From positions 434,001 through 498,000 of the forward strand of contig CAJXNC010000001.1 of NCBI GenBank assembly GCA_913056125.1: a stretch of DNA of 64,000 nucleotides, in the 5' to 3' direction. The notes under the pieces were generated by a model, which made no database searches, was not told the origin of the DNA, and saw only the letters and a program-made list of their open reading frames with translations. Every line of letters begins with the position of its first letter. Within the stretch, counting starts at the first letter, position 1. This DNA is from an uncultured Altererythrobacter sp. (GTDB lineage Bacteria > Pseudomonadota > Alphaproteobacteria > Sphingomonadales > Sphingomonadaceae). Below, one piece after another: positions 448 through 56,913 of this stretch. The translations under genes and the position numbers were made by a program.

Positions 448-1458
448 TCAACTTTGCGGGGCATTGCCCGCGCGCCATTCGCGCGGCGTAATGCCGAAGC
501 GCTTGCGGAACAGGCGCGTGAAATAGCCCGGATCGAGGAAGCCGGTGCGATAGGCGATATCGGATATTGAAAGGCCCCCGGCGCGCGGATCGGACAGCAA
601 CTCGCTTGCCCGTTCTAGCCGTGTTGCATTGAGCTCCTGCACGAAGCTGGTCCCGCTAGCTGCCAGCAGCGTCTGCAGATAGCGCTTGGAAATGCCCGCC
701 CGGTCCGCCGCCATTTCGGGCGAAAGGTCCGGATCGGCATAATCGCTTTCGATATGTCGCAAGATCCGTGCGGCGAGCTGGTTGCGGTGGCGCGGTGCCT
801 CGTCGCCTTGTTCATGTCCTGCAGCCAGGGCCAGCAGGCTGCCGAACTGCTCGGCGATAAGGGGGCGCGGCAGCGGAGCATTCTCGAGCCCGCCATCGAG
901 GATTGTGTCGATCAGCGCGCCGAGCGGGGCACCCCAGCCTTCGCTCGCCGAAAAGGGCCGTGCGAGCAAAGCCTGCGGGTCGGGCAAATACTTCTCCAGC
1001 CAACCCTGCGGCATCATCAAATCGATGCATTCGTGCTCGGTTACCATCTCCATCTGGTAGAATCTTGTATTGTCGAGCAGCACGAACGCGCCCGGGTTCA
1101 CATCGAATGTGCGCCCGGCCATGGTGGTCTTGAGCACGCCGCTGCGCGACCAGACCAGCTGGATCGACGGCGCGGCGCGCATCGGTACGCCGGCTGAACC
1201 GACATGGGTCACGCGTTGGGCGGGTGCATGGATATGCAGCAGCCGCAACTGGCCGATGCCGTGATTGACCCAGCGCGCGGCAAAGGCATTGGGATCGAAC
1301 AGCTCGACTTCGATCGGTGCAATAGTGTTGGCAGCCCAGTCGCGCCAGGCATTGATCGCATCGCGCTGGGCCAGCCCCGAGGAGCTCCAGCTTTCATCCT
1401 GTGTCTGGGCGGGCTTCACCATGACGCTCAGGCTAAGACGCGCCGCCGTCTGGGGCAA
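448..1458 (-). CDS. AraC family transcriptional regulator
   Basis: 336 residues. The C-terminal third (about residues 225-330) is a typical double helix-turn-helix AraC domain, ending in the family signature around ISDIAYRTGFLDPGYFTRLF and RKRFGITPREWR. The N-terminal part is a cupin-like effector domain of the AraC_binding_2/FeaR type (ligand-binding region with LVWSRSG and FVLLDNTRF). It lies immediately upstream of the DODA-type dioxygenase and is divergent, across only 74 bp, from the operon beginning with the substrate-binding lipoprotein. It is therefore the obvious candidate regulator of both transcripts, probably responding to an aromatic compound. Internal ATG at codon 13 is an alternative start. 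Regulator class is clear; the inducer is not visible from the sequence. Confidence 0.9.
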   Translation of the reverse strand: MPQTAARLSLSVMVKPAQTQDESWSSSGLAQRDAINAWRDWAANTIAPIEVELFDPNAFAARWVNHGIGQLRLLHIHAPAQRVTHVGSAGVPMRAAPSIQLVWSRSGVLKTTMAGRTFDVNPGAFVLLDNTRFYQMEMVTEHECIDLMMPQGWLEKYLPDPQALLARPFSASEGWGAPLGALIDTILDGGLENAPLPRPLIAEQFGSLLALAAGHEQGDEAPRHRNQLAARILRHIESDYADPDLSPEMAADRAGISKRYLQTLLAASGTSFVQELNATRLERASELLSDPRAGGLSISDIAYRTGFLDPGYFTRLFRKRFGITPREWRAGNAPQS

Positions 1459-1532: not shown

Positions 1533-2528
1533 ATGCGATTTGCCGTAACCGCCATTCTGGGCGCGATGGCGCTGGCAAGCTGTACTGCCGAGCCCGAGCC
1601 GCTGCCCGATCCCGGGCCGATAGCCGTCTATGGCAACAAGCAGACTTTCGAGATTGCACCGGTCCTGCTGGCGGCAGAACATTACTATCCGGGCGAGGCC
1701 TATGTCGGCATGGGCTCGATCGCCAATCTCGTAGGTGCGCCGCCCGTTCCCGGTTTCGGTGAGGAAGGCGATGCCGACCTCGCGACCAATGCCGAGACGC
1801 AGATCCTGCGCTATTCGGTCGAGAATCCCAACCTGCGCGTGATCATGACGGTGACAGAGGGCCTTTACCGCATTGTCGCTCGCCGTTCCGCCGGGATCGA
1901 AAGCGTGGCCGACCTCAAGGGCAAACGCGTTGCCACCATTCCGCAGACGAGCGCGGGCTATTTTACCAAGATGATGCTGGAGGATGCGGGCCTCACCTTC
2001 GAAGATATCGAGGCGGTTCCGATCGTCCCGCTCGCCGGCATGACCGAGGCGCTCGCCAATGGCGAAGTCGATGCGGTGGCGATCTGGGAGCCTGAAAGCG
2101 AGAATGCCGCGCAGGTGCTGGGCGACGATCTGGTCGTGTTCGGTGGCGAGGGCGTTTATCGCGAGCTCTTCAACCTCAATTCGACGGCAGAGAACCTTGC
2201 CGATCCGGAAACGCGCAACAAGATCGTGCAGTTCATCCGCGCGATCCTCGATGCCTCGGAAGAGGTACGCACCAGTCCCGAACGCGCGCAGGCGCTGATC
2301 GTTGAATCAGGTGAATTCGATCCGCAGGACGTGCAGGATAGCTGGGTTCACCAGGGCTGGATTGCCGCCGTGCCCGACGATCTTCTCGACGTGCTCGAAG
2401 TGCAGGAAGTCTGGCTTGCAGAACAGGCCGATCGCGAACCGCGCGGCCGCGAGGAACTGGCGACGCTGATCGATACCAGCGCCTATGAAGAAGCCGTTGC
2501 GCTTGGCCCGAGGGGTGAGCGCGAATGA
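1533..2528 (+). CDS. Orphan ABC-type substrate-binding lipoprotein (NMT1/SsuA-like)
   Basis: 331 residues, starting after a strong GGGGAGGA Shine-Dalgarno. The N-terminus is a lipoprotein signal with lipobox LASC (Cys17). The rest resembles the NMT1/THI5/SsuA family of periplasmic binding proteins: ADLATNAETQ, then the VADLKGKRVA and TSAGYF region, then AVAIWEPE. No permease or ATPase gene lies beside it, so it is an orphan binding protein. It may feed a transporter encoded elsewhere or act as a ligand sensor. A clear paralog with the same architecture and length is encoded at 55.9-56.9 kb on the other strand. Its stop overlaps the start of the next gene by 4 bp (ATGA), indicating translational coupling to the triple-SnoaL protein. 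Confidence 0.85.
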   Translation: MRFAVTAILGAMALASCTAEPEPLPDPGPIAVYGNKQTFEIAPVLLAAEHYYPGEAYVGMGSIANLVGAPPVPGFGEEGDADLATNAETQILRYSVENPNLRVIMTVTEGLYRIVARRSAGIESVADLKGKRVATIPQTSAGYFTKMMLEDAGLTFEDIEAVPIVPLAGMTEALANGEVDAVAIWEPESENAAQVLGDDLVVFGGEGVYRELFNLNSTAENLADPETRNKIVQFIRAILDASEEVRTSPERAQALIVESGEFDPQDVQDSWVHQGWIAAVPDDLLDVLEVQEVWLAEQADREPRGREELATLIDTSAYEEAVALGPRGERE

Positions 2529-4414
2529 TCCGAAGTCTCTTTGCGGCCCTTATCGTCCTGCTGCTGGCGGCCCTCCCGGCGTCAGCGCAGGACGACCCGG
2601 CCATTGCCACGGCGCAGGCCGAGGACCTGACCTCGGTCCGCCAGATCAAGCATATGCAGGCCCGCTGGGGCCATATGGCACTGGCGGGCAATTGGTCGGG
2701 CATGGCCGACATGCTGACCGACAATGCCGAGCTGGTGACGCGCGGCGGGGTCATATCGGGCCGCGGAGGCATCGAAGGCTGGCTTCGCACCACGCAGGGA
2801 CACGGCACGGATGGAATGGTGCAAGGCCGGCTCAACCTGCACCTCTGGATCAGCCCGATCATCACGCTCGCCGATGACGGACAGAGCGCTACCGGGCGCT
2901 GGCACGAACTGGCGCTGACCGGCGATATTGGCCAGTCGGCGGATTGGGCGGGCGGCACCTGGGTTGTGCAATATGCCATGCAGGGGGATGCCTGGCGCAT
3001 CGCGCAGATGCGCTATTACCACCAGTTTGCAGGCTCCTATGCCGATGGCTGGAGCCACGATGCCGAGACGCTCGAGCGGGCGCCTTATCACTACACGCCC
3101 GAAAGCGCCGGGATCGTCATTCCCGAGCGAAGGGCGGCGCAGCCCTGGTCGCAGGAAGCGATCGACCGGCGCGCCAATGTGCTGCTGGCAGAGGGCCTCG
3201 CGCTCAACACGGTCAATGCCTACGGCTTCTACCTCGACCGTGGCATGTATGACGATATCGTCGACCTGTTTTCCGAGGACGCCAAGATCGAGATTGGCGG
3301 CTTCGGCAGCTGGAACGGGGAAGAGGGCGTGCGCGCTTTCCTGACGCGTTATGGCGAGCCGGGCCTGCAATATGGCGAGCTGAACGATCACGCCCAGCTC
3401 ATGCCGATGGTCAATATTGCCGAGGACGGTTCGATGGCGCTGGTGCGCAATATCGACCTTGCGCAGATGGGCCAGCATGGCGGCGAGGGATACTGGCAGG
3501 TCATGATGCAGACCTTCCTGCTGCGCCCCGACGAAAACGGGAACTGGCGGATCACGCTGGTGCATCACAACCCGGTGATGCGCGCCACCTATGCCAATGG
3601 CTGGATGGACCCGATTGCCGCCGAGATTCCCTTCCCCGAAGGCGGTGAGCCCAATGGCGAGACGCAGCTGGGATCAATCGACTTCCGCAACGGCCCCTAT
3701 GGCGTCCCGCCGCTGGGTGAGAGCCTGTTCATGCCCGCGCGCGGCGAGCCTGCGCCGCTGGCAGCTGTGCCTAATGCGCTGGCACGCGCCGAGGCGTTCG
3801 ACGGTGCGGAGAATATCTCCAACGCCTATGGCTATTACATCGACCAGTTTTCCTGGCGCGAAACGACGGAGGTGTTTTCGCAGGAGGGCTGGAAGGAGCT
3901 CTCCTATATCGGCACCTTCGTCGGGCGCGAGCGACTGTGGTCGAGCCTGGTGCAGCGCTATGGCAATAGTGGGCCGAGCAATGCTTTCCAGGCGATCCAC
4001 CAGAAGACCCAGCCATATGTCACTGTCTATGACGACGGCACGCATGCCTTCATCCGCCAACGGCTGATGCAGTATAACAGCTCGGCCAGCGGGCCGGGTT
4101 CGTGGAATAGCGGCGTCTACGAGAACCAGATCGTCAAGGAAGACGGAGCCTGGCGCATTGCCGGCATGGACTTGGATTATACCTGGACGGCGCCCTACAC
4201 GGTCGGCTGGACCGGGGTCGATCCCGATGCCGCCTCGCGCTCGCTGATGTCGGAGGAGGCGATTGCCGAATTCGCGCCGGATTCACCGTTGCGGGGCACG
4301 ATTGCCGCCCCCTATCCGCAGGTTGCGCCGATGGGCTTCCATTTCGACAATCCGGTGAGTGGCCGCGAACCCGAAACGAAGCTAGAGTGGTCCGACGGAC
4401 GCACGCCACGCTAA
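2525..4414 (+). CDS. Exported protein with three SnoaL/NTF2-like domains
   Basis: 629 residues with a classical Sec signal peptide (hydrophobic LFAALIVLLLAALPASAQ, cleavage near residue 22). The mature part holds three consecutive SnoaL/NTF2-like cone domains, at about residues 32-175, 210-360 and 420-570. Each starts with a helix carrying an N-A-Y-G-Y/F-Y or equivalent motif and ends in an xGxWRIxxM/LxxxH-type strand. Single SnoaL domains are common small cyclases, dehydratases, hydratases or binding folds, but a periplasmic three-domain chain is unusual. It is translationally coupled to the upstream substrate-binding lipoprotein and sits inside the aromatic cluster. A role in binding or hydrating a ring-fission or cyclic substrate in the periplasm is inference. 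Two further exported SnoaL-like proteins are encoded at 14.3-16.2 kb. Confidence 0.8.
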   Translation: MIRSLFAALIVLLLAALPASAQDDPAIATAQAEDLTSVRQIKHMQARWGHMALAGNWSGMADMLTDNAELVTRGGVISGRGGIEGWLRTTQGHGTDGMVQGRLNLHLWISPIITLADDGQSATGRWHELALTGDIGQSADWAGGTWVVQYAMQGDAWRIAQMRYYHQFAGSYADGWSHDAETLERAPYHYTPESAGIVIPERRAAQPWSQEAIDRRANVLLAEGLALNTVNAYGFYLDRGMYDDIVDLFSEDAKIEIGGFGSWNGEEGVRAFLTRYGEPGLQYGELNDHAQLMPMVNIAEDGSMALVRNIDLAQMGQHGGEGYWQVMMQTFLLRPDENGNWRITLVHHNPVMRATYANGWMDPIAAEIPFPEGGEPNGETQLGSIDFRNGPYGVPPLGESLFMPARGEPAPLAAVPNALARAEAFDGAENISNAYGYYIDQFSWRETTEVFSQEGWKELSYIGTFVGRERLWSSLVQRYGNSGPSNAFQAIHQKTQPYVTVYDDGTHAFIRQRLMQYNSSASGPGSWNSGVYENQIVKEDGAWRIAGMDLDYTWTAPYTVGWTGVDPDAASRSLMSEEAIAEFAPDSPLRGTIAAPYPQVAPMGFHFDNPVSGREPETKLEWSDGRTPR

Positions 4415-4444: not shown

Positions 4445-5188
4445 ATGGCAACGGTCACAGCGGGGAGTGCGGCGCGCGCAGGCTTCAGGCCCAGCTTCCA
4501 TCTCGTCATGTCGCTGGTCATGGCGACCTTCGTCGTGATCGGCTTCGGCCTGAGCTATTTCATTCCCATGGCGCAGGGCACGCGCCCGCCGGATTCGCCC
4601 ATCGTGCATTTGCACGGCTTTGCCTATTTCAGCTGGATCGCGCTGCTCGTGGTCCAGTCCGCACTGGTCAATGTGAAGAAGGTCAAGTTGCACCGCGCGC
4701 TTGGCACTTTCGGGATCGCGGTGGGGACGTTCACCGCGCTGATGGGACTGGCGATCATGTTCGCCGCCGCCTCGATCACGACCCTCAATGAAGTGGCGGT
4801 GCGGATCTACTGGCTCAACGTGACGGCACCGCTCAATTTCGCGGTGGTTTTTGCCATGGGTATCGCCGTGGCGCGGACGCGCCCGCAGGTTCATCGCAAC
4901 CTCATGCTCATCGCCACGATCGGCGTGCTCATGCCCGCGATCAACCGCGTCTACATGCAGGGGCTGGGCGTGGAGGGCGTACCTTTTATCGCTACCTATC
5001 TGACAATGGACGTGCTGCTTGCCGCGACGCTCTGGCATGAGCGAAAAACACTCGGATCGATCAGCCGCTGGAGCCTCATTGCCGCCGCCATTGTTGTGGG
5101 GCTGCAAGCACTCAACTTCCCCGTTTCAAGCACGCCCGAATGGAGCCAGTTCGTCTATTGGCTCGGCACATTCGTGGAATATCACTAG
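4445..5188 (+). CDS. Multi-pass membrane protein of unknown function
   Basis: 247 residues preceded by an AGGGAGGA Shine-Dalgarno. Seven or so hydrophobic segments can be counted (around residues 20-40, 52-72, 85-105, 118-140, 150-165, 175-195 and 205-225). Conserved-looking histidines lie near membrane faces (HLHGFAYFSW, KLHRALG, VHRNLM). The pattern recalls DUF2306/cytochrome-b-like small membrane proteins, but I cannot assign a family with certainty. It follows the triple-SnoaL gene by 30 bp in the same direction and precedes an amidohydrolase, so it is probably part of the same transcript. Function could be uptake or membrane electron transfer; neither is shown. Confidence 0.75.
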   Translation: MATVTAGSAARAGFRPSFHLVMSLVMATFVVIGFGLSYFIPMAQGTRPPDSPIVHLHGFAYFSWIALLVVQSALVNVKKVKLHRALGTFGIAVGTFTALMGLAIMFAAASITTLNEVAVRIYWLNVTAPLNFAVVFAMGIAVARTRPQVHRNLMLIATIGVLMPAINRVYMQGLGVEGVPFIATYLTMDVLLAATLWHERKTLGSISRWSLIAAAIVVGLQALNFPVSSTPEWSQFVYWLGTFVEYH

Positions 5189-5254: not shown

Positions 5255-6292
5255 ATGGGTAACAAGTGCCGCCTGATCGCCTGCGAGGAAGCATGGTCGA
5301 TCCCCGAAGTCGCCGCCGAGCTGAAGAAGGTCGCACGCAGCCCGAGCCAGAGTCTGGACAAGCTGCTTGTCGCCGGGATCTACGATGCCGAAACCGATAC
5401 CAGTGGCTATGGCAAGATGGATTTCCTCGGCGGCCTGCTCGATGTCGAGCAGCAGCGCCTGCCGCAGATGGACGATTACGGCGTGGACATGCACCTGCTC
5501 ACGCTGACCGCGCCGGGCGTGCAGATGTTCGATGCCGATACGGCGACCGACCTCGCAGCGCTCAGCAATGACCGCATGGCGGAAATCTGCGCCAATCGGC
5601 CCGATCGCTTTGCCGGGCTGGGCAGCTTTGCCCCGCATTCGCCCAAGCGCGCCGCGAAAGAGGTCGAGCGGGTGATGACCGAGCTCAAGCTCAACGGGCT
5701 GGTCGTGAACTCGCACACCAATGGCGACTATTTCGACGATTACCGCTTTTGGCCGATCCTCGAGGCGGCCGAGGCGCACAACGCCACCATCTATATCCAT
5801 CCGCGCGCGCCTTCGGACACGCTCAAGGGGCCGCTGCAGGACTATGCGATGGATTCGGCCATGTGGGGCTACGGTGTCGAAGTCGGCACGCATATGCTGC
5901 GCATGATGGCGGGCGGCGTGTTCGACCGCTTCCCCAACCTCAAGATCTGCGTCGGCCATATGGGCGAGATGGTTCCCTACTTCATCTGGCGGATCAATTT
6001 CATGAATTCCCGCGCGCAGAAGGTCGGCCGGGCGCCCAAGACCGAGCGCAGCATGGAAGAGTATTTCCGCGACAACTTCGTCTTCACCACCAGTGGTGTG
6101 GAGGACCATCTCACGCTTCGCTACGCGATCGAGCGCATGGGCATCGAAAACGTCATCTGGGCGATCGACTATCCCTACCAGCCGATGAAGCCGGCGGTCG
6201 ATTTCATCGAGAGCTTCGACTGCACCATGGATGAGCTTCACGCGCTTTGTCATGGAAATGCCGAAAGGGTGTTCCATATAGATCCCGAATAG
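5255..6292 (+). CDS. Amidohydrolase-2 family protein, probable aromatic acid (de)carboxylase or hydrolase
   Basis: 345 residues with a GGAGAGGA Shine-Dalgarno 5 bases before the ATG. It belongs to the TIM-barrel amidohydrolase 2 family (ACMSD, gamma-resorcylate decarboxylase, 5-carboxyvanillate decarboxylase LigW). The usual N-terminal HxH is replaced by ACEEAW (Glu11/Glu12). His182 (IYIHPRAP), His235 (VGHMGEMVPY) and Asp305 (WAIDYPYQP) complete a metal site of the Glu/His/His/Asp kind, which I recall from non-oxidative aromatic decarboxylases. Sitting with an extradiol dioxygenase and a CoA transferase, it most likely decarboxylates a hydroxylated benzoate or hydrolyses a ring-cleavage product. 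The exact substrate cannot be read from the sequence. Confidence 0.85.
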   Translation: MGNKCRLIACEEAWSIPEVAAELKKVARSPSQSLDKLLVAGIYDAETDTSGYGKMDFLGGLLDVEQQRLPQMDDYGVDMHLLTLTAPGVQMFDADTATDLAALSNDRMAEICANRPDRFAGLGSFAPHSPKRAAKEVERVMTELKLNGLVVNSHTNGDYFDDYRFWPILEAAEAHNATIYIHPRAPSDTLKGPLQDYAMDSAMWGYGVEVGTHMLRMMAGGVFDRFPNLKICVGHMGEMVPYFIWRINFMNSRAQKVGRAPKTERSMEEYFRDNFVFTTSGVEDHLTLRYAIERMGIENVIWAIDYPYQPMKPAVDFIESFDCTMDELHALCHGNAERVFHIDPE

Positions 6293-6306
6293 GGAGGTTT
6301 GCGCTC

Positions 6307-6750
6307 ATGGTGATGTTCCTTGGTTTCATGGCGGCAATCACGCTGGTGATGTGGCTCGCGCCGGATTCTGCGGCGGGCCGTGCGCTCAACCAGCAACTGG
6401 TCGAGCGCCCGCTGGACCAGCTATCGAAAATGCGCAGCCACCACCTGATCTTCCTCATCCTCATGGCCGGGTTTGCGCTGGGTGGCGGGGAGATCTTCCT
6501 CCTGATGGGGCCGGAGCTCGCCACCGCCTTCGTGGTCGACCTGTCGATCTATTTCGATGCCGTGCTGGTGACCTACGCCGTCTCCGCCTTGGCGGTAGCG
6601 CGCAAGAGCATGCGCTTCCTCGCTCTGCCCTTCACTTCGCGATTGCGCAGGGTTCGGGCGAGACGAAAGCGTTCCGCTATTCGCAAGGCAGAGCGCAGGC
6701 CGAGCAATGATGACGAACCCGATCCTGCCCTCCTGCCGCTGGCTGCCTGA
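6307..6750 (+). CDS. Small membrane protein of unknown function
   Basis: 147 residues using the ATG at 6307, which has a GGGAGG Shine-Dalgarno at 6294-6300. The ORF track starts earlier, at 6247, inside the amidohydrolase gene, which is less likely. Three hydrophobic segments are visible: the N-terminus (MVMFLGFMAAITLVMWLA), the centre (HHLIFLILMAGFALGGGEIFLLM) and one around residues 80-98. They are followed by a very basic, Arg/Lys-rich cytosolic tail. No family recognised. It lies 14 bp after the amidohydrolase and 5 bp before the CoA transferase, so it belongs to the catabolic operon and may be an accessory to the other membrane protein of the cluster. Confidence 0.7.
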   Translation: MVMFLGFMAAITLVMWLAPDSAAGRALNQQLVERPLDQLSKMRSHHLIFLILMAGFALGGGEIFLLMGPELATAFVVDLSIYFDAVLVTYAVSALAVARKSMRFLALPFTSRLRRVRARRKRSAIRKAERRPSNDDEPDPALLPLAA

Positions 6751-6755
6751 TCGCC

Positions 6756-7868
6756 ATGTCTGCACCGCTTGAAGGTATAAAGGTCGTCGAACTGGCGCGC
6801 ATCCTTGCCGGGCCATGGGCCGGGCAGGTGCTCGCCGATCTGGGCGCGGAAGTGGTCAAGGTCGAAAGCCCGGCGGGTGACGATACGCGCACCTGGGGAC
6901 CGCCCTTCATCCAGCGCGCCGATGGCTCGCAAGATGCCGCCTATTTCCACGCCGCCAATCGCGGCAAGTCGAGCATCATCGCCGATTTCAACGATCCGGA
7001 GGACCATGCCAAGGTCCTCGACCTGATCCGCGATGCGGACGTGCTGATCGAGAACTTCAAGACCGGCGGTCTCGCCAAGTTCGGCCTCGATTATGAGAGC
7101 GTGAAGGAGATCAATCCGCGCCTCGTCTATTGCTCGATCACCGGCTTCGGTCACACAGGGCCATACGCGCCATTCGCGGGCTATGATTTCATTATCCAGG
7201 GGATGAGCGGGATGATGGATTTGACCGGCTTTCCCGATGGCCCGCCGACCAAGATCGGCATGGCCTATGCCGACATATTGACTGGACTTTACGGCGTGAT
7301 CGGCATCCAGGCGGCGCTGCACCAGCGCGAGAGTACCGGGCGCGGCCAGCATATCGATATGAGCCTCTTCGACACCATGGTCGGCACGCTTGCCAACCAG
7401 GCGATGAACTATCTCGTTTCCGGCAAGGCGCCGCATCGCATGGGCAATGCCCATCCCAATATCGTGCCCTATGAGGCATTCCCTTGCGAAGATGGCTGGC
7501 TGATCATCGCGGTCGGTAATGACCGGCAGTTCAAGCGGCTGGTCGAGCTCCTTGAGCTGGAATGCGAGGAGGGCTGGGCGACCAATCCGGGCCGCGTGCA
7601 GGACCGCGTGGACGTTTCCGCCGCAATTTCCGCCGCCACCGCCAATTGGAAGCGCGACGATCTCCTCGAAAAGCTGGAGGAATTGCGCGTTCCCGCGGGT
7701 CCGATCCACGATGTGGGCGAGGCGCTTAACGATCCGCAGATCGTGGCGCGCAAGATGGTGGTCGATCTGGAAGAGAATATTCGCGGCATCCGCACCCCGA
7801 TCACCTTCTCCGATGCTGAACTGGCACTTGGCAAACCTTCGCCCATGATGCCGAAAAAGGGTGCGTAG
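6756..7868 (+). CDS. CaiB/BaiF family (class III) CoA transferase
   Basis: 370 residues, full length for the family. The N-terminus LEGIKVVELARILAGPWAGQ is a textbook class III CoA-transferase opening, and KVESPAGDDTR and CSITGFGHTGPY match the CoA-binding regions. The catalytic aspartate, which forms the aspartyl-CoA thioester, is probably Asp173 in MAYADILTGLYG. Such enzymes move CoA between carboxylic acids (formyl-CoA:oxalate, crotonobetaine, benzylsuccinate types). Its stop codon overlaps the GTG start of the double-OsmC gene by one base, so the two products are probably made together. In this operon it would activate an acid produced from the aromatic substrate; the donor and acceptor are unknown. 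Confidence 0.92.
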   Translation: MSAPLEGIKVVELARILAGPWAGQVLADLGAEVVKVESPAGDDTRTWGPPFIQRADGSQDAAYFHAANRGKSSIIADFNDPEDHAKVLDLIRDADVLIENFKTGGLAKFGLDYESVKEINPRLVYCSITGFGHTGPYAPFAGYDFIIQGMSGMMDLTGFPDGPPTKIGMAYADILTGLYGVIGIQAALHQRESTGRGQHIDMSLFDTMVGTLANQAMNYLVSGKAPHRMGNAHPNIVPYEAFPCEDGWLIIAVGNDRQFKRLVELLELECEEGWATNPGRVQDRVDVSAAISAATANWKRDDLLEKLEELRVPAGPIHDVGEALNDPQIVARKMVVDLEENIRGIRTPITFSDAELALGKPSPMMPKKGA

Positions 7869-9034
7869 TGGCGGGACACGAGAACATCCTTGGCCATGAT
7901 GCGCGACCCAGCTTCTTCCTGGTGAAGGACGGAACGGAGCGCCTGCAAGCACCGCCCCCGCGCAAGGGCCAGTCTGTGCGCTTTGCCGCGCGTTCGCTTT
8001 CGGTGATGCAGAAGGAGGGGCTGGTCGCATCCAGCGCCTCTGGCCAGGTCTGGCGGTTGGTTTCGGACGAAGGCGCCTATCTCGACGGTTTCAACGAGGC
8101 GCCCTGTCCTTTGAGTTTCCTCACCACCGGCATGGTCTCGTCCTACATGACCGAATTGCTCGCGCTGGCCGAACAGCGCGGCATCGTCATTCGCAATGTC
8201 ACGCTGGTGCAGGACAATTTCTACACCATGAAGGGCAGTGCACTCAAAGGTACGATGACCGGCGGTGCCAAGGATGTGGAGCTCGAGGCGCGGATCGACA
8301 GCGATGCCAATGCCGAGGCATTGCGGGCGTTGGTCTATGACGCGGTCGCCGCATCCCCGCTCAACGGATTGATGCGCGGCTGCAAGGACAGCCTGTTCAC
8401 ACTGACTCACAAGGGCCGCCGCGTAATCCCCGACAAGGCGAAGCCTGTCTTTGGCGACATCCCGCCCGATCCCGGCCCGGTAATCGAGGGCGTGGTGCCG
8501 GAAACGTCCGAACGCTTCATCCGCCGCGGCCCAATGAGCCCGCTGACCGAAGAGGCAACCTCGTCGCAGGGCTCTTCGCTGGCCGAAGAGCAGGACCGCA
8601 TTCTCCACATTCGCGGCATCTGCACCGTGCGCGAGGATGGGGTGAAGCAGGTCGAGCAACAGCTCTTCAACCCGCATGGCAGCATCTTCCATTTCCTCTG
8701 TGACGAGCAGGGTCGCGCGCCCGATGCGGGCTCCTATATCGCGGCGGGGATCGGCTTCTGCTTCATGACCCAGCTGGGCCGTTATGCGAAGATCGCGAAG
8801 AAGGACCTCTCCGCCTATAATGTGGTGGAAGACATCCATTTCTCGCTGGGAGGGGCCAGCGGCGGGACCGGACAGGCGGGCAACGCCGAACCTGTCGAAA
8901 CGCATGTCTATCTTCATTCGACCGAGGACAGCTTCTTCGCCCGCGCCGCGCTCGACATGGGTGAGCAGACTTGCTTCCTCCATGCCTTCTGCCGCACCGA
9001 CCTCAAGGCACGGGTCAAAGTTACGCGGGTTTGA
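7868..9034 (+). CDS. Protein with two tandem OsmC-like domains
   Basis: 388 residues starting at a GTG that overlaps the CoA-transferase stop. It appears to hold two OsmC/Ohr-type modules. The first is at about residues 45-170, with Cys80 in FNEAPCPLSFLTTGM and a helix-rich segment after it. The second is at about 265-385, with Cys in AAGIGFCFMTQLGRYA and a C-terminal GEQTCFLHAFCR. A Pro-rich linker separates them. OsmC/Ohr proteins usually work as single-domain dimers that reduce organic hydroperoxides through paired cysteines. This chain would be a covalent pseudo-dimer, and its cysteines are not in the canonical spacing. Coupling to a CoA transferase suggests thiol/thioester chemistry or a hydrolase role rather than stress defence, but that is inference. 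Confidence 0.75.
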   Translation: MAGHENILGHDARPSFFLVKDGTERLQAPPPRKGQSVRFAARSLSVMQKEGLVASSASGQVWRLVSDEGAYLDGFNEAPCPLSFLTTGMVSSYMTELLALAEQRGIVIRNVTLVQDNFYTMKGSALKGTMTGGAKDVELEARIDSDANAEALRALVYDAVAASPLNGLMRGCKDSLFTLTHKGRRVIPDKAKPVFGDIPPDPGPVIEGVVPETSERFIRRGPMSPLTEEATSSQGSSLAEEQDRILHIRGICTVREDGVKQVEQQLFNPHGSIFHFLCDEQGRAPDAGSYIAAGIGFCFMTQLGRYAKIAKKDLSAYNVVEDIHFSLGGASGGTGQAGNAEPVETHVYLHSTEDSFFARAALDMGEQTCFLHAFCRTDLKARVKVTRV

Positions 9035-12871: not shown

Positions 12872-14118
<1,247 letters not shown>

Positions 14119-21430: not shown

Positions 21431-22294
21431 ATGGCCAAAGGTCCGTCGAAACCCGATCCCCGTCCGCAGGAAGAAACCGTTCGCTACGAAGTGGAGAACG
21501 ACATTGCCTGGGTCTATTTCAACCGTCCCGACAAGCGCAATTGCATGAGCCCCAAGCTCAACCGGCAGATGAAGATCGTGCTGGAGGAGCTGGAATTCCG
21601 CGATGACGTGAAGGTTCTCGTGCTCACCGGCGAAGGTTCGTCCTGGACTGCCGGCATGGACCTGCTCGAGTATTTCCGCATGACCGAGGCCGAGGGCCTG
21701 CACGCCATCCGCCGCAGCCAGCGCGAAAGCTATGGCTGGTTCGAGCGCCTGCGCTGGTACGAAAAGCCGACTGTGGCGATGATCAATGGCTGGTGCTTCG
21801 GCGGCGGCTACGGCCCGCTATTCGGCTGCGACATCGCCATTGCTTCCGAAGATGCGCAGTTTGGCCTGTCCGAAATCAACTGGGGCATCCTGCCCGGTGG
21901 CGGCGCTTCCAAGGTGGTGCAAGAGCTGATGCCGTTCCGCAAGGCCATGTATCACGCCATGATGGGCGAGAACCTGTCCGGCAAGCAAGCCGAAGAGCAG
22001 GGTCTCGTCACCGAATGCGTGCCCGCAGACAAGCTGAAGGAACGCGTGATCGAGATCTGCGAAGTCCTGAAGAAGAAGGACAGCCAGGCTCTGCGCGCCA
22101 CCAAGTGGACCGTCCGCCGCATGGTCGACATGACCTATGACAATGGCCTGGAATACCAGATCCGTGCGCAGGAAGCGCTGCACAGCTTCGGCGGCAAGGA
22201 AGCCCGTGTCGAGGCGACCAAGCAGTTCCTCGACGACAAGGCCTTCAAGCCCGGCCTCGGCTCGTTCGACACGAGCAAGGTCAAGAAGGACTGA
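21431..22294 (+). CDS. ferB: p-Hydroxycinnamoyl-CoA hydratase-lyase (FerB/Ech-like)
   Basis: 287 residues, crotonase superfamily, with an excellent GAGGAGAG Shine-Dalgarno. The sequence has the signature of hydroxycinnamoyl-CoA hydratase-lyases: VAMINGWCFGGGYGPL forms the oxyanion hole, and SEINWGILPGGGA carries the catalytic Glu148 (Glu143 in the Pseudomonas enzyme). It converts feruloyl-, caffeoyl- or coumaroyl-CoA to the matching aldehyde (vanillin for ferulate) plus acetyl-CoA. The next gene is an ADP-forming CoA ligase and the divergent gene a MarR regulator, so this is the core of a ferulate pathway. A strong terminator follows 12 bp after the stop, separating it from the ligase. Confidence 0.95.
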   Translation: MAKGPSKPDPRPQEETVRYEVENDIAWVYFNRPDKRNCMSPKLNRQMKIVLEELEFRDDVKVLVLTGEGSSWTAGMDLLEYFRMTEAEGLHAIRRSQRESYGWFERLRWYEKPTVAMINGWCFGGGYGPLFGCDIAIASEDAQFGLSEINWGILPGGGASKVVQELMPFRKAMYHAMMGENLSGKQAEEQGLVTECVPADKLKERVIEICEVLKKKDSQALRATKWTVRRMVDMTYDNGLEYQIRAQEALHSFGGKEARVEATKQFLDDKAFKPGLGSFDTSKVKKD

Positions 22295-22305
22295 TTTTGC
22301 ATCTG

Positions 22306-22345
22306 GAGGCGGCGCGGGCACTTGTTCGCGCCGCCTCTTCTTTCT
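22306..22345 (+). terminator. Rho-independent terminator between ferB-like and ferA-like genes
   Basis: A perfect 11-bp stem (GAGGCGGCGCG pairing with CGCGCCGCCTC) around a 10-base loop is followed by TTCTTTCT. It starts 12 bp after the hydratase-lyase stop. As the ligase gene lies 66 bp further on in the same direction, it may set the ratio of the two products or mark separate transcripts. Confidence 0.85.
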
Positions 22346-22366
22346 AGGCAGCTCCAGCAAACACCC

Positions 22367-22385
22367 GCCCCGGTTCAGCCGGGGC
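22367..22385 (+). other. Short GC-rich hairpin in the leader of the CoA ligase gene
   Basis: GCCCCGG and CCGGGGC form a perfect 7-bp stem with a 5-base loop, 26 bp before the ligase ATG and just after the terminator. It has no T run. It could stabilise the 5' end of a processed ligase mRNA or be an incidental repeat. Confidence 0.5.
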
Positions 22386-22410
22386 TTCGCATGTCCGAAG
22401 GGATGACCCA

Positions 22411-24531
22411 ATGACGACCCGCCGCTTTTCCAATGAACAGATCGACCGCCTGCTGCGCCCGAAATCGGTGGCGGTGGTCGGCGCCTCCGACCGTCATGGC
22501 GCGCTCGGCTGCACGCTGCTCAACAACCTCGTCCAGTATGAGTTCGATGGCGACATCTACCCCGTCAATCCCAAGCGCGACGAGTTGCAGGGCCTCAAGG
22601 TCTACCATTCGGTCAACGAACTGCCCCACGGCGTCGATTGCGCCGTGCTGGCAATCCCGCGTCCCTTCGTGGTCGATACGGTGCGCGACCTGGCCAAGAA
22701 TGGCTGCGGCGCCGTGGTGATTTATGCCGCCGGTTTCTCCGAAGCGGGCGAGGAAGGCGCCAAGGACCAGGCCGAGCTGGCTCGCATTGCCGAAGAATAC
22801 GGCATTGTCATCGAAGGCCCGAATTGCCTCGGCTGCACGAACTATGTCGCGCGTATCCCGCTGACCTTCGTGGAAACCAATATGCGCACCCCGCCGGAAG
22901 GCGCGCGCGCCGTAGGCATAGCCAGCCAGTCGGGCGCCCTGGCTGCCGTTCTGGCAACCACGCTGCATCCGCGCGGCTGCTACGTCTCCACCTCGGTCTC
23001 GACCGGTAACGAGGCGGCATCGGGCGTCGAGGACTATGTCGAATGGCTGATCGACGATCCCTCGACCAATGTCATCGCTATGTATGTCGAGAATTTGCGC
23101 CGTCCCGCTGCTTTCATCGCCGCGGCGCGCCGCGCGCGCGCTGCAGGCAAGCCCATCGTCATGCTGCACCCGGGCAAGAGCGACAAGGCGCAGGAGAGTG
23201 CCGCCACGCATACCGGCGCCATGGCTGGCGACTATGCGCTGATGAAGGCCAAGCTGGGCCGCGAAGGCATCATCTTTGCCGATACGCTGGAAGAGCTGGC
23301 CGATATCGCCACCATTGCGGTGACCTGCGAGAGCCTGCCGGGTGCGAACATGGCGGTGCTGGGCGAAAGCGGCGCGCTGCGCGGCCTCGCCTTCGATATT
23401 GCCGAGGATATCGGTCTCGACCTGGTCGACCTCAATGACGAAAACAGCCCGGCCATCCGCGCCGTGCTGCCCGATTTCGTGCCCGTCTCGAACCCGACCG
23501 ACATTACCGCGATAGGCCTCAGCGAGCCGGAGATTTACACCAACCTCCTCAAGGCCCTGCTCGAGGACGAGCGCATCGGCTCGGTGGTCGCCTCGATCAT
23601 CCAGTCCGACCCCATTACCTCTAAGATCAAGTTCCCGCCGATCCAGAAGGTTCTCGATGGCGGCGACCTGGGCAAGCCGCTGGTCTTTGCCGGCGTCGAC
23701 GAAGGCGCCAACGTGCCGCAGGAATATATCGACGGGCTGGCCCGCGTTGGCATCCCCTATTTCCGGTCCACCGAACGCGCCTATCGTGCCATTGCCCGAC
23801 TGGCCGACCTGGCCAAGCGTGACCTGACCGACAATTCGCCGGATCCGGTCGTGTTGCCGGGCCTGGCCGAGGAAAGCGGCGTGATCCCCGAATACAAGGC
23901 CAAGGCCCTGCTGGCAGAGGCCGGCATCCTTTTCCCGCCGAGCAAGTTCGCCGCCAATACGGAAGAGGCAGAAGCCGCCGCCGAGGAAATCGGCTATCCG
24001 GTCGTGATGAAGGCGCAGGCTGCCGCGCTTGGCCACAAGAGCGATGCGGGCGGCGTGAAGCTCAATCTCAAGTCGCGCGAGGAGGTCAATGCGGCCTTCC
24101 AGCAGATGTATGTCGACGTCGCCAATTACGACGCCTCGATCACGCTCGACGGTGTGCTGATCGAGAAGATGGGCAAGATGGGCACCGAGATGATCGTCGG
24201 CGCCAAGTCCGATCCCGAATGGGGCCCGGTCGTTCTGGCTGGTTTCGGCGGTGTGACGGCGGAGATCCTCAAGGACGTGAAGCTGTTCACGCCGGACATG
24301 GGCAAGGACCAGGTCAAGGCCGGCCTGCTGGCGCTCAAGCAGGCGCCGCTGCTGACCGGCTGGCGTGGCAGCCCTGCGCTCGACGTGGACGCACTGGCCG
24401 ACCTGATCGTCAAGATCGGTGCGGTCATGCTCGGCAATCCTTCGATCCGGGAGATCGACCTCAACCCGGTGATCATCCACCCGGCGGGCGAGGGCGTGGC
24501 CGCGCTCGACGCGCTGATGCTGGTCGATTGA
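22411..24531 (+). CDS. ferA: ADP-forming acyl-CoA synthetase (FerA-like hydroxycinnamate-CoA ligase)
   Basis: 706 residues, full-length fused alpha-beta form of the NDP-forming acyl-CoA synthetase family. The order is: CoA-binding Rossmann domain (SVAVVGASDRHGALG, residues 13-130), succinyl-CoA-ligase-like domain with the phospho-His loop ATHTGAMAGD near residue 267, then an ATP-grasp domain from about 480 with GYPVVMKAQAAALGHKSDAGGV and a C-terminal EIDLNPV. In sphingomonads the feruloyl-CoA synthetase FerA is, as I recall, of this ADP-forming type rather than the AMP-forming type of pseudomonads. The position next to the hydratase-lyase gene makes that assignment likely. Substrate range among hydroxycinnamates is not visible. 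Confidence 0.88.
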   Translation: MTTRRFSNEQIDRLLRPKSVAVVGASDRHGALGCTLLNNLVQYEFDGDIYPVNPKRDELQGLKVYHSVNELPHGVDCAVLAIPRPFVVDTVRDLAKNGCGAVVIYAAGFSEAGEEGAKDQAELARIAEEYGIVIEGPNCLGCTNYVARIPLTFVETNMRTPPEGARAVGIASQSGALAAVLATTLHPRGCYVSTSVSTGNEAASGVEDYVEWLIDDPSTNVIAMYVENLRRPAAFIAAARRARAAGKPIVMLHPGKSDKAQESAATHTGAMAGDYALMKAKLGREGIIFADTLEELADIATIAVTCESLPGANMAVLGESGALRGLAFDIAEDIGLDLVDLNDENSPAIRAVLPDFVPVSNPTDITAIGLSEPEIYTNLLKALLEDERIGSVVASIIQSDPITSKIKFPPIQKVLDGGDLGKPLVFAGVDEGANVPQEYIDGLARVGIPYFRSTERAYRAIARLADLAKRDLTDNSPDPVVLPGLAEESGVIPEYKAKALLAEAGILFPPSKFAANTEEAEAAAEEIGYPVVMKAQAAALGHKSDAGGVKLNLKSREEVNAAFQQMYVDVANYDASITLDGVLIEKMGKMGTEMIVGAKSDPEWGPVVLAGFGGVTAEILKDVKLFTPDMGKDQVKAGLLALKQAPLLTGWRGSPALDVDALADLIVKIGAVMLGNPSIREIDLNPVIIHPAGEGVAALDALMLVD

Positions 24532-55917: not shown

Positions 55918-56913
55918 TCACTCCGCAAGCGCTTCTTCCAGCACTGAGTAGTCGATGAACTGCGCCAGTTCCTCGCGCGAACGCGGTTCACGGTCCTGCG
56001 CCCTGGCGACCCACCTGTCCTCGACTTCCAGCACATCGAGGATGTCCGGCACGATATGGATCGGGAATTCCATTTCTTCCCAGCTGCCCTCGATATCCGA
56101 GACCGGATAGCCGATTTGGTCGGAGACCATCTGCCAGTACGGCTCCGGGTCTTCCTCCAATGCGTTTGTGGCATCGATAATGGCGCGCACGAAGCCGACC
56201 ACCGCCTTGCGGCGTTCGGGATCGTTCAGCTGGTCCACCGTGGTGTAAAGGCTGAATACCTCGCGATAGACGCTGCGATCCTGAAGCACGATGGCATCGT
56301 CTCCGAGATCGGCGATGGCATCGACAGGCTCGGGTTCCCAGATCGACATGGCATCGGCTTCGCCATCCACCATCAGGTCACTCATCATGTCCATGGAGGT
56401 GATGAGGTCGGGGCCTCGGGGGAAGGGAACCAGCGTCACGTCTTCATCGCTGAGCCCGACCGATTGCAGCATTGCCTCAAGGTAATATCCTGCCGATGTC
56501 CCTGCGGGCACGACGATGCGCTTGCCTTCGAGGTCGGCCAGGGTCTCGATGCCGGAAGAGCGCTTGGCCACGAGGCGGTAGAAGCTCTCGGTCACGGTCA
56601 TGATGAGCCGGATGTCCGGATTGTTGACCGTTTCGCGCAGCATCTGGGTCTCGGCATTGGTGACGATATCGGCTTCGCCGCTGGTCAGGGACCTGACCCC
56701 GCCGGTGCAGATGCTCACATCGCCATTATAGAATTCGTTCGCAGCCACGACCACGGGCGAGAGTTCGATCCACATGCCGCCGCAAAAGCGCACATCGGGT
56801 AGCGGCTCGGCTTCGGCCACCTCCTGCGCATCGGTGCAGCCCGCGAGCAAGCTGACGCTCGCGACCAGTGCAACAACTGCGCGCGGGAGAAGTGAACTTT
56901 TGAGCGATTTCAT
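55918..56913 (-). CDS. Orphan ABC-type substrate-binding lipoprotein, paralog of the 1.5-kb gene
   Basis: 331 residues with a lipoprotein signal (VALVASVSLLAGCTD). Body and C-terminus mirror the protein encoded at 1533-2528: ADIVTNAETQMLRETVNNP, IMTVTESFYRLVAKRSSGIE, LADLEGKRIVVPAGTSAGY, SIWEPEPVDA and the ending VEDRWVARAQDREPRSREEL. As there, no permease or ATPase is adjacent. The family (NMT1/SsuA-like) binds organic sulfonates, thiamine precursors or aromatics in studied cases. Two lone copies in one window suggest a partner transporter elsewhere or a sensing role. Confidence 0.85.
   Translation of the reverse strand: MKSLKSSLLPRAVVALVASVSLLAGCTDAQEVAEAEPLPDVRFCGGMWIELSPVVVAANEFYNGDVSICTGGVRSLTSGEADIVTNAETQMLRETVNNPDIRLIMTVTESFYRLVAKRSSGIETLADLEGKRIVVPAGTSAGYYLEAMLQSVGLSDEDVTLVPFPRGPDLITSMDMMSDLMVDGEADAMSIWEPEPVDAIADLGDDAIVLQDRSVYREVFSLYTTVDQLNDPERRKAVVGFVRAIIDATNALEEDPEPYWQMVSDQIGYPVSDIEGSWEEMEFPIHIVPDILDVLEVEDRWVARAQDREPRSREELAQFIDYSVLEEALAE

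Follow-up and report, generated by a model that had tools for sequence, protein, structure and literature searches.

A binding-protein gene without ABC partners overlaps the gene of an exported, LdpA-related triple-SnoaL protein in Altererythrobacter: a candidate periplasmic capture-and-convert pair

Gene content of the locus

The window analysed here is a stretch of 64,000 nucleotides from the genome of an uncultured Altererythrobacter sp., an alphaproteobacterium that degrades aromatic compounds. Two of its genes, encoding a substrate-binding lipoprotein and an exported protein with three SnoaL domains (SnoaL3), overlap by four bases and are followed by genes on the same strand. The features are listed below (coordinates, strand, description; L numbers denote loci in other genomes).

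448-1458, minus strand: divergent AraC-family regulator (PF12833/PF14525), beside the pair also in L010, L011, L043 and L044
1533-2528, plus strand: open reading frame for a substrate-binding lipoprotein of the NMT1/THI5/SsuA-type fold, 331 aa (Pfam NMT1/THI5-like, PF09084, E 1.6e-17)
2525-2528, plus strand: ATGA start/stop overlap of the binding-protein and SnoaL genes, read from the sequence
2525-4414, plus strand: exported triple-SnoaL_4 protein, LdpA-related, 629 aa (three Pfam PF13577 stretches, E 3.4e-51)
2588-3124, plus strand: SnoaL domain 1 (about residues 22-200), degenerate, with Leu53 at the catalytic Asp position
3140-3679, plus strand: SnoaL domain 2 (about residues 206-385), with invariant Asp238 and, in the window, His289
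3752-4411, plus strand: SnoaL domain 3 (about residues 410-629), the most conserved, with Asp440 (3842-3844) and His492 (3998-4000)
4445-5188, plus strand: membrane protein of about 6 helices with no Pfam family, in the same place in L011
5255-6292, plus strand: LigW-like amidohydrolase of the 5-carboxyvanillate decarboxylase family (PF04909; PDB 4icm, 1.5e-113), with the pair also in L010, L011, L043 and L044
6247-6750, plus strand: small membrane protein with an uncertain start codon, also present in L010 and L044
6756-7868, plus strand: class III CoA-transferase (PF02515, 9.9e-124)
7868-9034, plus strand: co-directional OsmC-like protein (PF02566)
55918-56913, minus strand: paralogue of the binding protein (about 42–45% identity), with no permease or ATPase gene nearby

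The preliminary description of this locus had noted the ATGA overlap, which is present, and had taken it to mean that the two products are probably made in a fixed ratio in the same compartment. Export of both proteins is supported by the predicted signals, a lipobox on the binding protein and a Sec-type signal on SnoaL3. Because both starts have their own Shine-Dalgarno-like sequence (GGGGAGG before the binding protein, GAGGGG before SnoaL3), translational coupling of the two genes is likely, whereas the fixed ratio, which the overlap favours, is weakened to a plausible reading.

Recurrence of the pair

A scan of SnoaL3 against GTDB genomes returned seven loci, all with the binding-protein gene directly upstream on the same strand. 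When 301 same-family genomes were searched separately for each protein, matching coordinates for both were obtained in G015, G104, G117, G149, G201, G081 and G234, some of which are the same as named L loci. The search for genomes with adjacent genes, suggested at the outset, thus yielded 12 distinct genomes, the window's included, in which the pair is adjacent and on the same strand: Erythrobacteraceae-type relatives and one Parvularcula (L015). SnoaL3 identity among them ranges from 41% to 67%, and each close full-length SnoaL3 orthologue found has a binding protein directly upstream.

The junction reads RTGA in 11 of the 12 (ATGA in nine, GTGA in two), and the Parvularcula locus has a 6-base gap and no RTGA. 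In L043, the signal peptide of the SnoaL protein lies further downstream than the ATGA; its true start may also be further downstream and the ATGA coincidental. Because of this recurrence and the near-constant junction, we take the arrangement to be beyond chance.

The partnership is nevertheless not obligatory, since in the wider family of the binding protein roughly every second member (12 of the 24 on its tree) lacks an adjacent SnoaL gene. On that maximum-likelihood tree of 24 binding proteins, pairing is clustered, with 4 state changes versus 8.4 in shuffles, a pattern in keeping with a pairing that arose early and was lost in some descendants. The system is also restricted, as a class-wide sample of 385 genomes gave no strict-cut-off match beyond the genus; the pair in Parvularcula came from the GTDB scan.

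A binding protein without a cognate ABC transporter

The predicted structure of the binding protein (AlphaFold, pTM 0.74) finds its best Foldseek matches in SsuA (1e-12), and its modelled two-lobe NMT1-type fold, together with export or lipidation, agrees with the binding-protein class of ABC importers. It scores under the NCBIfam cut-offs of the SsuA, TAXI and taurine families (for TAXI it reaches 58.6 bits, where 84.35 are required), and no TRAP genes lie next to the pair in the window.

The lipobox (LASC) places the lipidated residue at Cys17, the only cysteine of the protein, with Thr at +2. The designation as a lipoprotein therefore holds for the window protein but does not extend to the family, as a plain Sec signal stands in place of the lipobox in several of its orthologues, and two genomes have a SnoaL protein that appears lipidated instead of the binding protein. 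In Escherichia coli, Asp at +2 governs to which membrane a lipoprotein is sorted. Because no relative's lipobox has Asp at this position, the lipidated binding proteins are predicted to be sorted to the outer membrane.

The same fold also occurs in an enzyme, DszB (2de2; Foldseek E about 5e-11 to the modelled window protein), which according to its PDB entry title acts on an aromatic substrate. DszB seemingly uses a cysteine (2de3 is a C27S mutant with substrate), whereas the window protein has only that of the lipobox; a DszB-like activity of the binding protein was rejected for want of a second cysteine.

NMT1/SsuA/TauA/Thi5-type ABC binding proteins, with which the window protein shares both fold and Pfam family, have a cognate permease and ATPase, whereas the window protein has neither in its genome. 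No ABC permease or ATPase gene lies near the pair, as had been stated from the outset. We searched the whole genome for ABC permeases (BPD_transp_1) and classed the eight matches by best NCBIfam match, obtaining the Opp, Yej, Mod, Pst and NtrB classes. The only permease of an NMT1-type class is NtrB (nitrate), which is encoded on contig C10 with its own binding proteins adjacent; a cognate ABC system elsewhere in the genome was rejected, as permease and NMT1 family searches gave only NtrB/NrtA, Opp, Yej, Mod and Pst.

Among relatives, no ABC permease gene was found within 20 kb of the binding-protein gene in 17 of 18. The sole exception, G146, has permeases just upstream and an oligo_HPY-type ATPase, forming a peptide-type (Yej/Opp) operon, and ABC genes were accordingly discarded as partners. 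The preliminary description had named an arrangement that would speak against the pairing, a binding-protein gene regularly next to its own permease and ATPase with the SnoaL gene absent; the first part is confined to this one relative, but the second does apply to the half of wider relatives that lack an adjacent SnoaL gene. Judged by these searches, the binding protein is truly an orphan.

A reading as ordinary uptake would have the binding protein serve a distant ABC permease or a secondary carrier such as a DASS-type symporter, with SnoaL3 acting separately on the same substrate. The SsuA/TauA/Thi5-type fold agrees with this, as do the DASS/CitMHS symporter gene that immediately follows the pair in L010 (the same as L045) and L044 and the two unassigned membrane proteins of the window (4445-5188 and 6247-6750). 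We nonetheless consider it unlikely, given that NtrB has binding proteins of its own, that the remaining permeases belong to the Opp, Yej, Mod and Pst classes, and that nearly all relatives lack a permease near the gene. That the two genes stayed together across 12 genomes points to a binding protein that no longer assists an importer and has been re-used to assist a periplasmic enzyme.

Domains and nearest relatives of SnoaL3

SnoaL3 carries a predicted Sec-type signal peptide (about residues 1-21, ALPASA-QDD) ahead of its three SnoaL_4 domains, in agreement with its initial description as an exported triple-SnoaL protein. The domains differ in the residues they retain across the 12 genomes. 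In domain 3, Asp440, which lies within an AYGYYID motif, and His492 are invariant, as are Tyr437, Tyr438, Trp456, Lys457, Lys494, Arg511 and Tyr532. In domain 2, Asp238 is present in all 12, with Arg at the position of His289 in ten; in domain 1, the Asp is absent and the His position is usually Arg in relatives. The window sequence is unusual in keeping His in both domains 1 and 2. Catalysis by all three domains, which the window's three His residues might suggest, was rejected in view of the Arg residues of relatives in domains 1 and 2 and the missing Asp in domain 1; one active domain (domain 3) with two degenerate ones is the better reading of the alignment.

The nearest PDB relative is NaLdpA (8abt; phmmer 8.6e-13, Foldseek 2e-10). 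NaLdpA and SpLdpA are NTF2-family enzymes that convert erythro-DGPD to lignostilbene by formaldehyde loss, and their homologue PcfL acts on phenylcoumarans (PMC12997858, PMC11323797). All three domains show homology to these enzymes (NaLdpA 8abt/8abu, SpLdpA 8abv/8abw, PcfL), with 25–30% identity to LdpA and E-values of 1e-10 to 2e-18 in pairwise tests; domain 3 has 30% identity to NaLdpA over 168 residues. His492 aligns with NaLdpA His97, which is marked as an active-site residue by 8abu, titled as the H97Q variant with substrate. This His and the Asp of the AYGYYID-type motif are conserved in domain 3 only, being absent from domain 1 and mostly not kept in domain 2. The link to aromatic compounds originally drawn from the SnoaL domains is strengthened by these likenesses, as the nearest solved relatives, NaLdpA and SpLdpA, act on aromatic dimers.

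There are also clear differences. LdpA and PcfL are of single-domain length without an export signal, and their pathways are described as intracellular, whereas SnoaL3 has an N-terminal signal peptide, three fused domains (two of them degenerate), a long C-terminal tail and a paired binding protein. LdpA orthologues proper, with 72% identity, are encoded separately in the window genome on contig C6. SnoaL3 is thus best seen as an LdpA relative in fused and exported form; LdpA itself acts on lignin dimers as a cofactorless gamma-formaldehyde lyase. The reaction of SnoaL3 may differ from that of LdpA, since identity is only about 30%.

More distant relatives share other traits. LinA, bile-acid 7-alpha-dehydratase and scytalone dehydratase-like enzymes have the SnoaL_4-type fold in common with the window protein (Foldseek), use an Asp-His dyad and form trimers, but they are single-domain chains and lack a paired binding protein. 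The iota-carbonic anhydrase of microalgae (7c5x) likewise holds several NTF2-like domains in one chain and gives a weak whole-chain Foldseek match; it differs in having no match to SnoaL3 in the phmmer search and an overall TM-score of only 0.14–0.19.

The AlphaFold model of SnoaL3 (pTM 0.81, mean pLDDT 74), which rests on 8 sequences and has low confidence in the linker between domains 2 and 3 and in the C-terminal tail, suggests from its pTM that the three domains pack together. Elsewhere in the genome (C6:137.0-139.2k), three consecutive genes for exported single-domain homologues overlap by ATGA; the proteins are 33–43% identical to one another, and one of them lacks the His. Three consecutive homologous matches at about 700-base spacing recur in 10 of the 11 genomes searched, as judged by coordinates, the sequence having been read for the window genome. 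This trio suggests a split-gene counterpart and, because LinA and scytalone dehydratase are trimeric, the fused protein may be a one-chain version of such a trimer.

Alternatively, both proteins could be non-catalytic. The SnoaL chain would then carry, scaffold or sense hydrophobic aromatics in the periplasm, as other NTF2-like binding proteins do, and the pair would buffer or detoxify ligands. The Asp-His dyad is missing from two of the three domains in most genomes, and many SnoaL-like proteins are not enzymes. The strong conservation of domain 3, with its invariant dyad and further invariant Tyr, Lys, Trp and Arg residues, and the enzymatic nature of the nearest relatives make this improbable in our view.

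Genomic neighbourhoods

Loci with the pair fall into two kinds. Kind 1 (L009, L012-L015, L040 and L041) comprises the pair, in some loci a 300-aa gene of no known family, and usually a LigI-like amidohydrolase. A TonB receptor is encoded beside the pair in L012-L015, L040 and L041 (63–72% identical to that of L014), and L014 further holds an aldehyde dehydrogenase and a BKACE enzyme whose score passes the NCBIfam threshold for 3,5-dioxohexanoate cleavage. Kind 2 (the window, L010, L011, L043 and L044) comprises the divergent AraC regulator, the pair, in most loci a membrane protein or DASS symporter, and the LigW-like decarboxylase; some also have the small membrane protein, CoA-transferase or OsmC protein. 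The pair is the constant core across both kinds, with the TonB receptor and the LigW- or LigI-like amidohydrolases as recurring partners. Solo binding proteins, too, lie next to TonB receptors in L050-L052, L055 and L056.

The window cluster has no TonB receptor, and a search of the window genome for the receptor of the other loci gave only a weak partial match (37%). In strain SYK-6, a TonB receptor for a lignin-derived dimer has been described (PMC6874591).

The neighbours give hints of the substrate. With the LigW-like enzyme next door, carboxylated vanillyl compounds come into view; the PcfL pathway of Novosphingobium also involves LigW (PMC11323797), a further likeness between the window locus and the LdpA/PcfL group. 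The LigI-like enzyme and BKACE speak for pyrones or 3,5-dioxo acids. A purely lignin-dimer role is weakened by this relative of pyrone hydrolases and the 3,5-dioxohexanoate-type BKACE at the other locus kind.

The two genes might also be mere co-transcribed members of an aromatic catabolic cluster that are not directly linked in function and overlap only because genes are packed closely there. Other neighbours in this operon likewise overlap or lie a few bases apart (6750/6756, 7868/7868), and each kind of locus has its own flanking genes. Yet the pair with its overlap is the sole constant between the LigW/CoA-transferase and the LigI/TonB receptor/BKACE neighbourhoods, and pairing is clustered on the binding-protein tree, which leaves this account distinctly improbable.

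Proposed mechanism

As the best explanation we tentatively favour, with somewhat guarded confidence, a capture-and-convert pair that works in the periplasm on an aromatic or pyrone acid admitted by a TonB receptor. Direct backing from sequence exists for the pair, its conservation and overlap, the export signals, the lack of a cognate ABC system, the homology to LdpA with the domain 3 dyad, and the linkage to catabolic and TonB receptor genes. In the proposed scheme, a TonB-dependent receptor would pass an aromatic or 2-pyrone carboxylate across the outer membrane, where the binding protein, probably held by its lipid on the inner face of that membrane, would capture the compound and, where other binding proteins serve an ABC permease, deliver it to the exported SnoaL enzyme with its three domains. 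The three NTF2/SnoaL domains would pack as a one-chain version of the family's usual trimer, and the domain 3 pocket (Asp440, His492) could catalyse an LdpA-like elimination by acid-base chemistry with no cofactor (dehydration or formaldehyde loss), or else a related dehydration or cyclisation. The product might then reach the cytoplasm via another carrier, where the amidohydrolase (LigW- or LigI-like) and the CoA or aldehyde enzymes encoded nearby would act on it. A cofactor-free lyase would suit this compartment, being among the few enzyme types that work in the periplasm without redox partners.

Several observations stand against capture and conversion: the binding proteins that lack an adjacent SnoaL gene; a second triple-SnoaL protein of the same genome (C1:307.4k) that has no binding protein and lies in a kind-1-like cluster (C1:307-316k); the absence of a TonB receptor from the window cluster; and the low identity to LdpA and PcfL, whose pathways are placed inside the cell. 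The full chain, in which an ABC-detached solute-binding protein loads TonB-delivered aromatic or pyrone ligands into a single-chain LdpA-type trimer for periplasmic cofactor-free cleavage or dehydration, is a more doubtful proposition.

Each part of the pair comes from a known family, and a literature search found no paper on exported multi-domain SnoaL proteins or on a binding protein-SnoaL pair; that search turned up neither a fused, exported version with a single active domain nor its partnership with a binding protein that has no transporter. If the proposal is true, lignin-type or pyrone compounds are in part broken down in the periplasm by a cofactor-free enzyme, and binding proteins long seen as transport parts gain a second use as enzyme partners. 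Strain SYK-6 has 62 NTF2-family homologues (PMC12997858), and SnoaL3 is a clear candidate among the many uncharacterised sphingomonad proteins of this family.

The binding-protein paralogue at the far end of the window has GST, rhodanese and esterase genes as neighbours.

Further SnoaL proteins in the same genome

The genome encodes several other SnoaL proteins, two sets of them exported (coordinates on its contigs C1 and C6):
C1, 307409-309547 (L071, 7409-9547), +, second exported triple-SnoaL protein
C6, 137002-139211 (L070, 7000-9211), -, run of three genes for exported single-domain SnoaL_4/LdpA-like proteins
C1, 423177-424043 (L038, 3177-4043), -, double SnoaL_2 protein

The cluster around the second triple-SnoaL protein (L071) lacks the binding protein, and encodes a LigI-like amidohydrolase and a BKACE together with ALDH-like genes, a TAT-exported amidohydrolase, BNR-repeat proteins and a 297-aa homologue of a gene left unassigned in loci L012 and L013. 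This conserved protein of about 300 aa (L013, 9916-10818; also in L012 and L071), which carries the motifs HHHDDFEQ and HHLRWPW, had no match in Pfam, NCBIfam or PDB, and is possibly a cupin. The LigI-like lactonase adjoins the BKACE in L071 (11340-13802) and in L014 (14134-15066 and 9912-10796), where the BKACE exceeds the 3,5-dioxohexanoate:acetyl-CoA acetone transferase cut-off; these two enzymes may form a pathway for 2-pyrones, e.g. triacetic acid lactone.

The single-domain trio is joined by ATGA overlaps and adjoined by a PQQ-type dehydrogenase with a cytochrome c domain, and homologous runs of three consecutive matches occur in 10 of the 11 genomes searched. Elsewhere on C6 (192522-193231; L002, L004), LdpA orthologue(s) 72% identical to NaLdpA indicate that the cell additionally has the ordinary diarylpropane lyase. 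The double SnoaL_2 protein, of a different SnoaL subfamily, lies ∼10 kb before the window begins.

Degenerate domains and aromatic-catabolism genes in the window

Two sets of window positions are relevant here:
2840-2842 and 3389-3391, H106 and H289 codons of the SnoaL protein
12872-14118 and 21431-24531, LigA/LigB ring-cleavage dioxygenase subunits, enoyl-CoA hydratase-type enzyme and ADP-forming acyl-CoA synthetase-like ORF

Both degenerate domains of the window protein carry His where nearly all relatives have Arg and, because H289 occupies the His position of domain 2, the Asp-His pair is complete there. Given the LigA/LigB, hydratase-type and synthetase-like ORFs, the window forms part of an aromatic-catabolism region.
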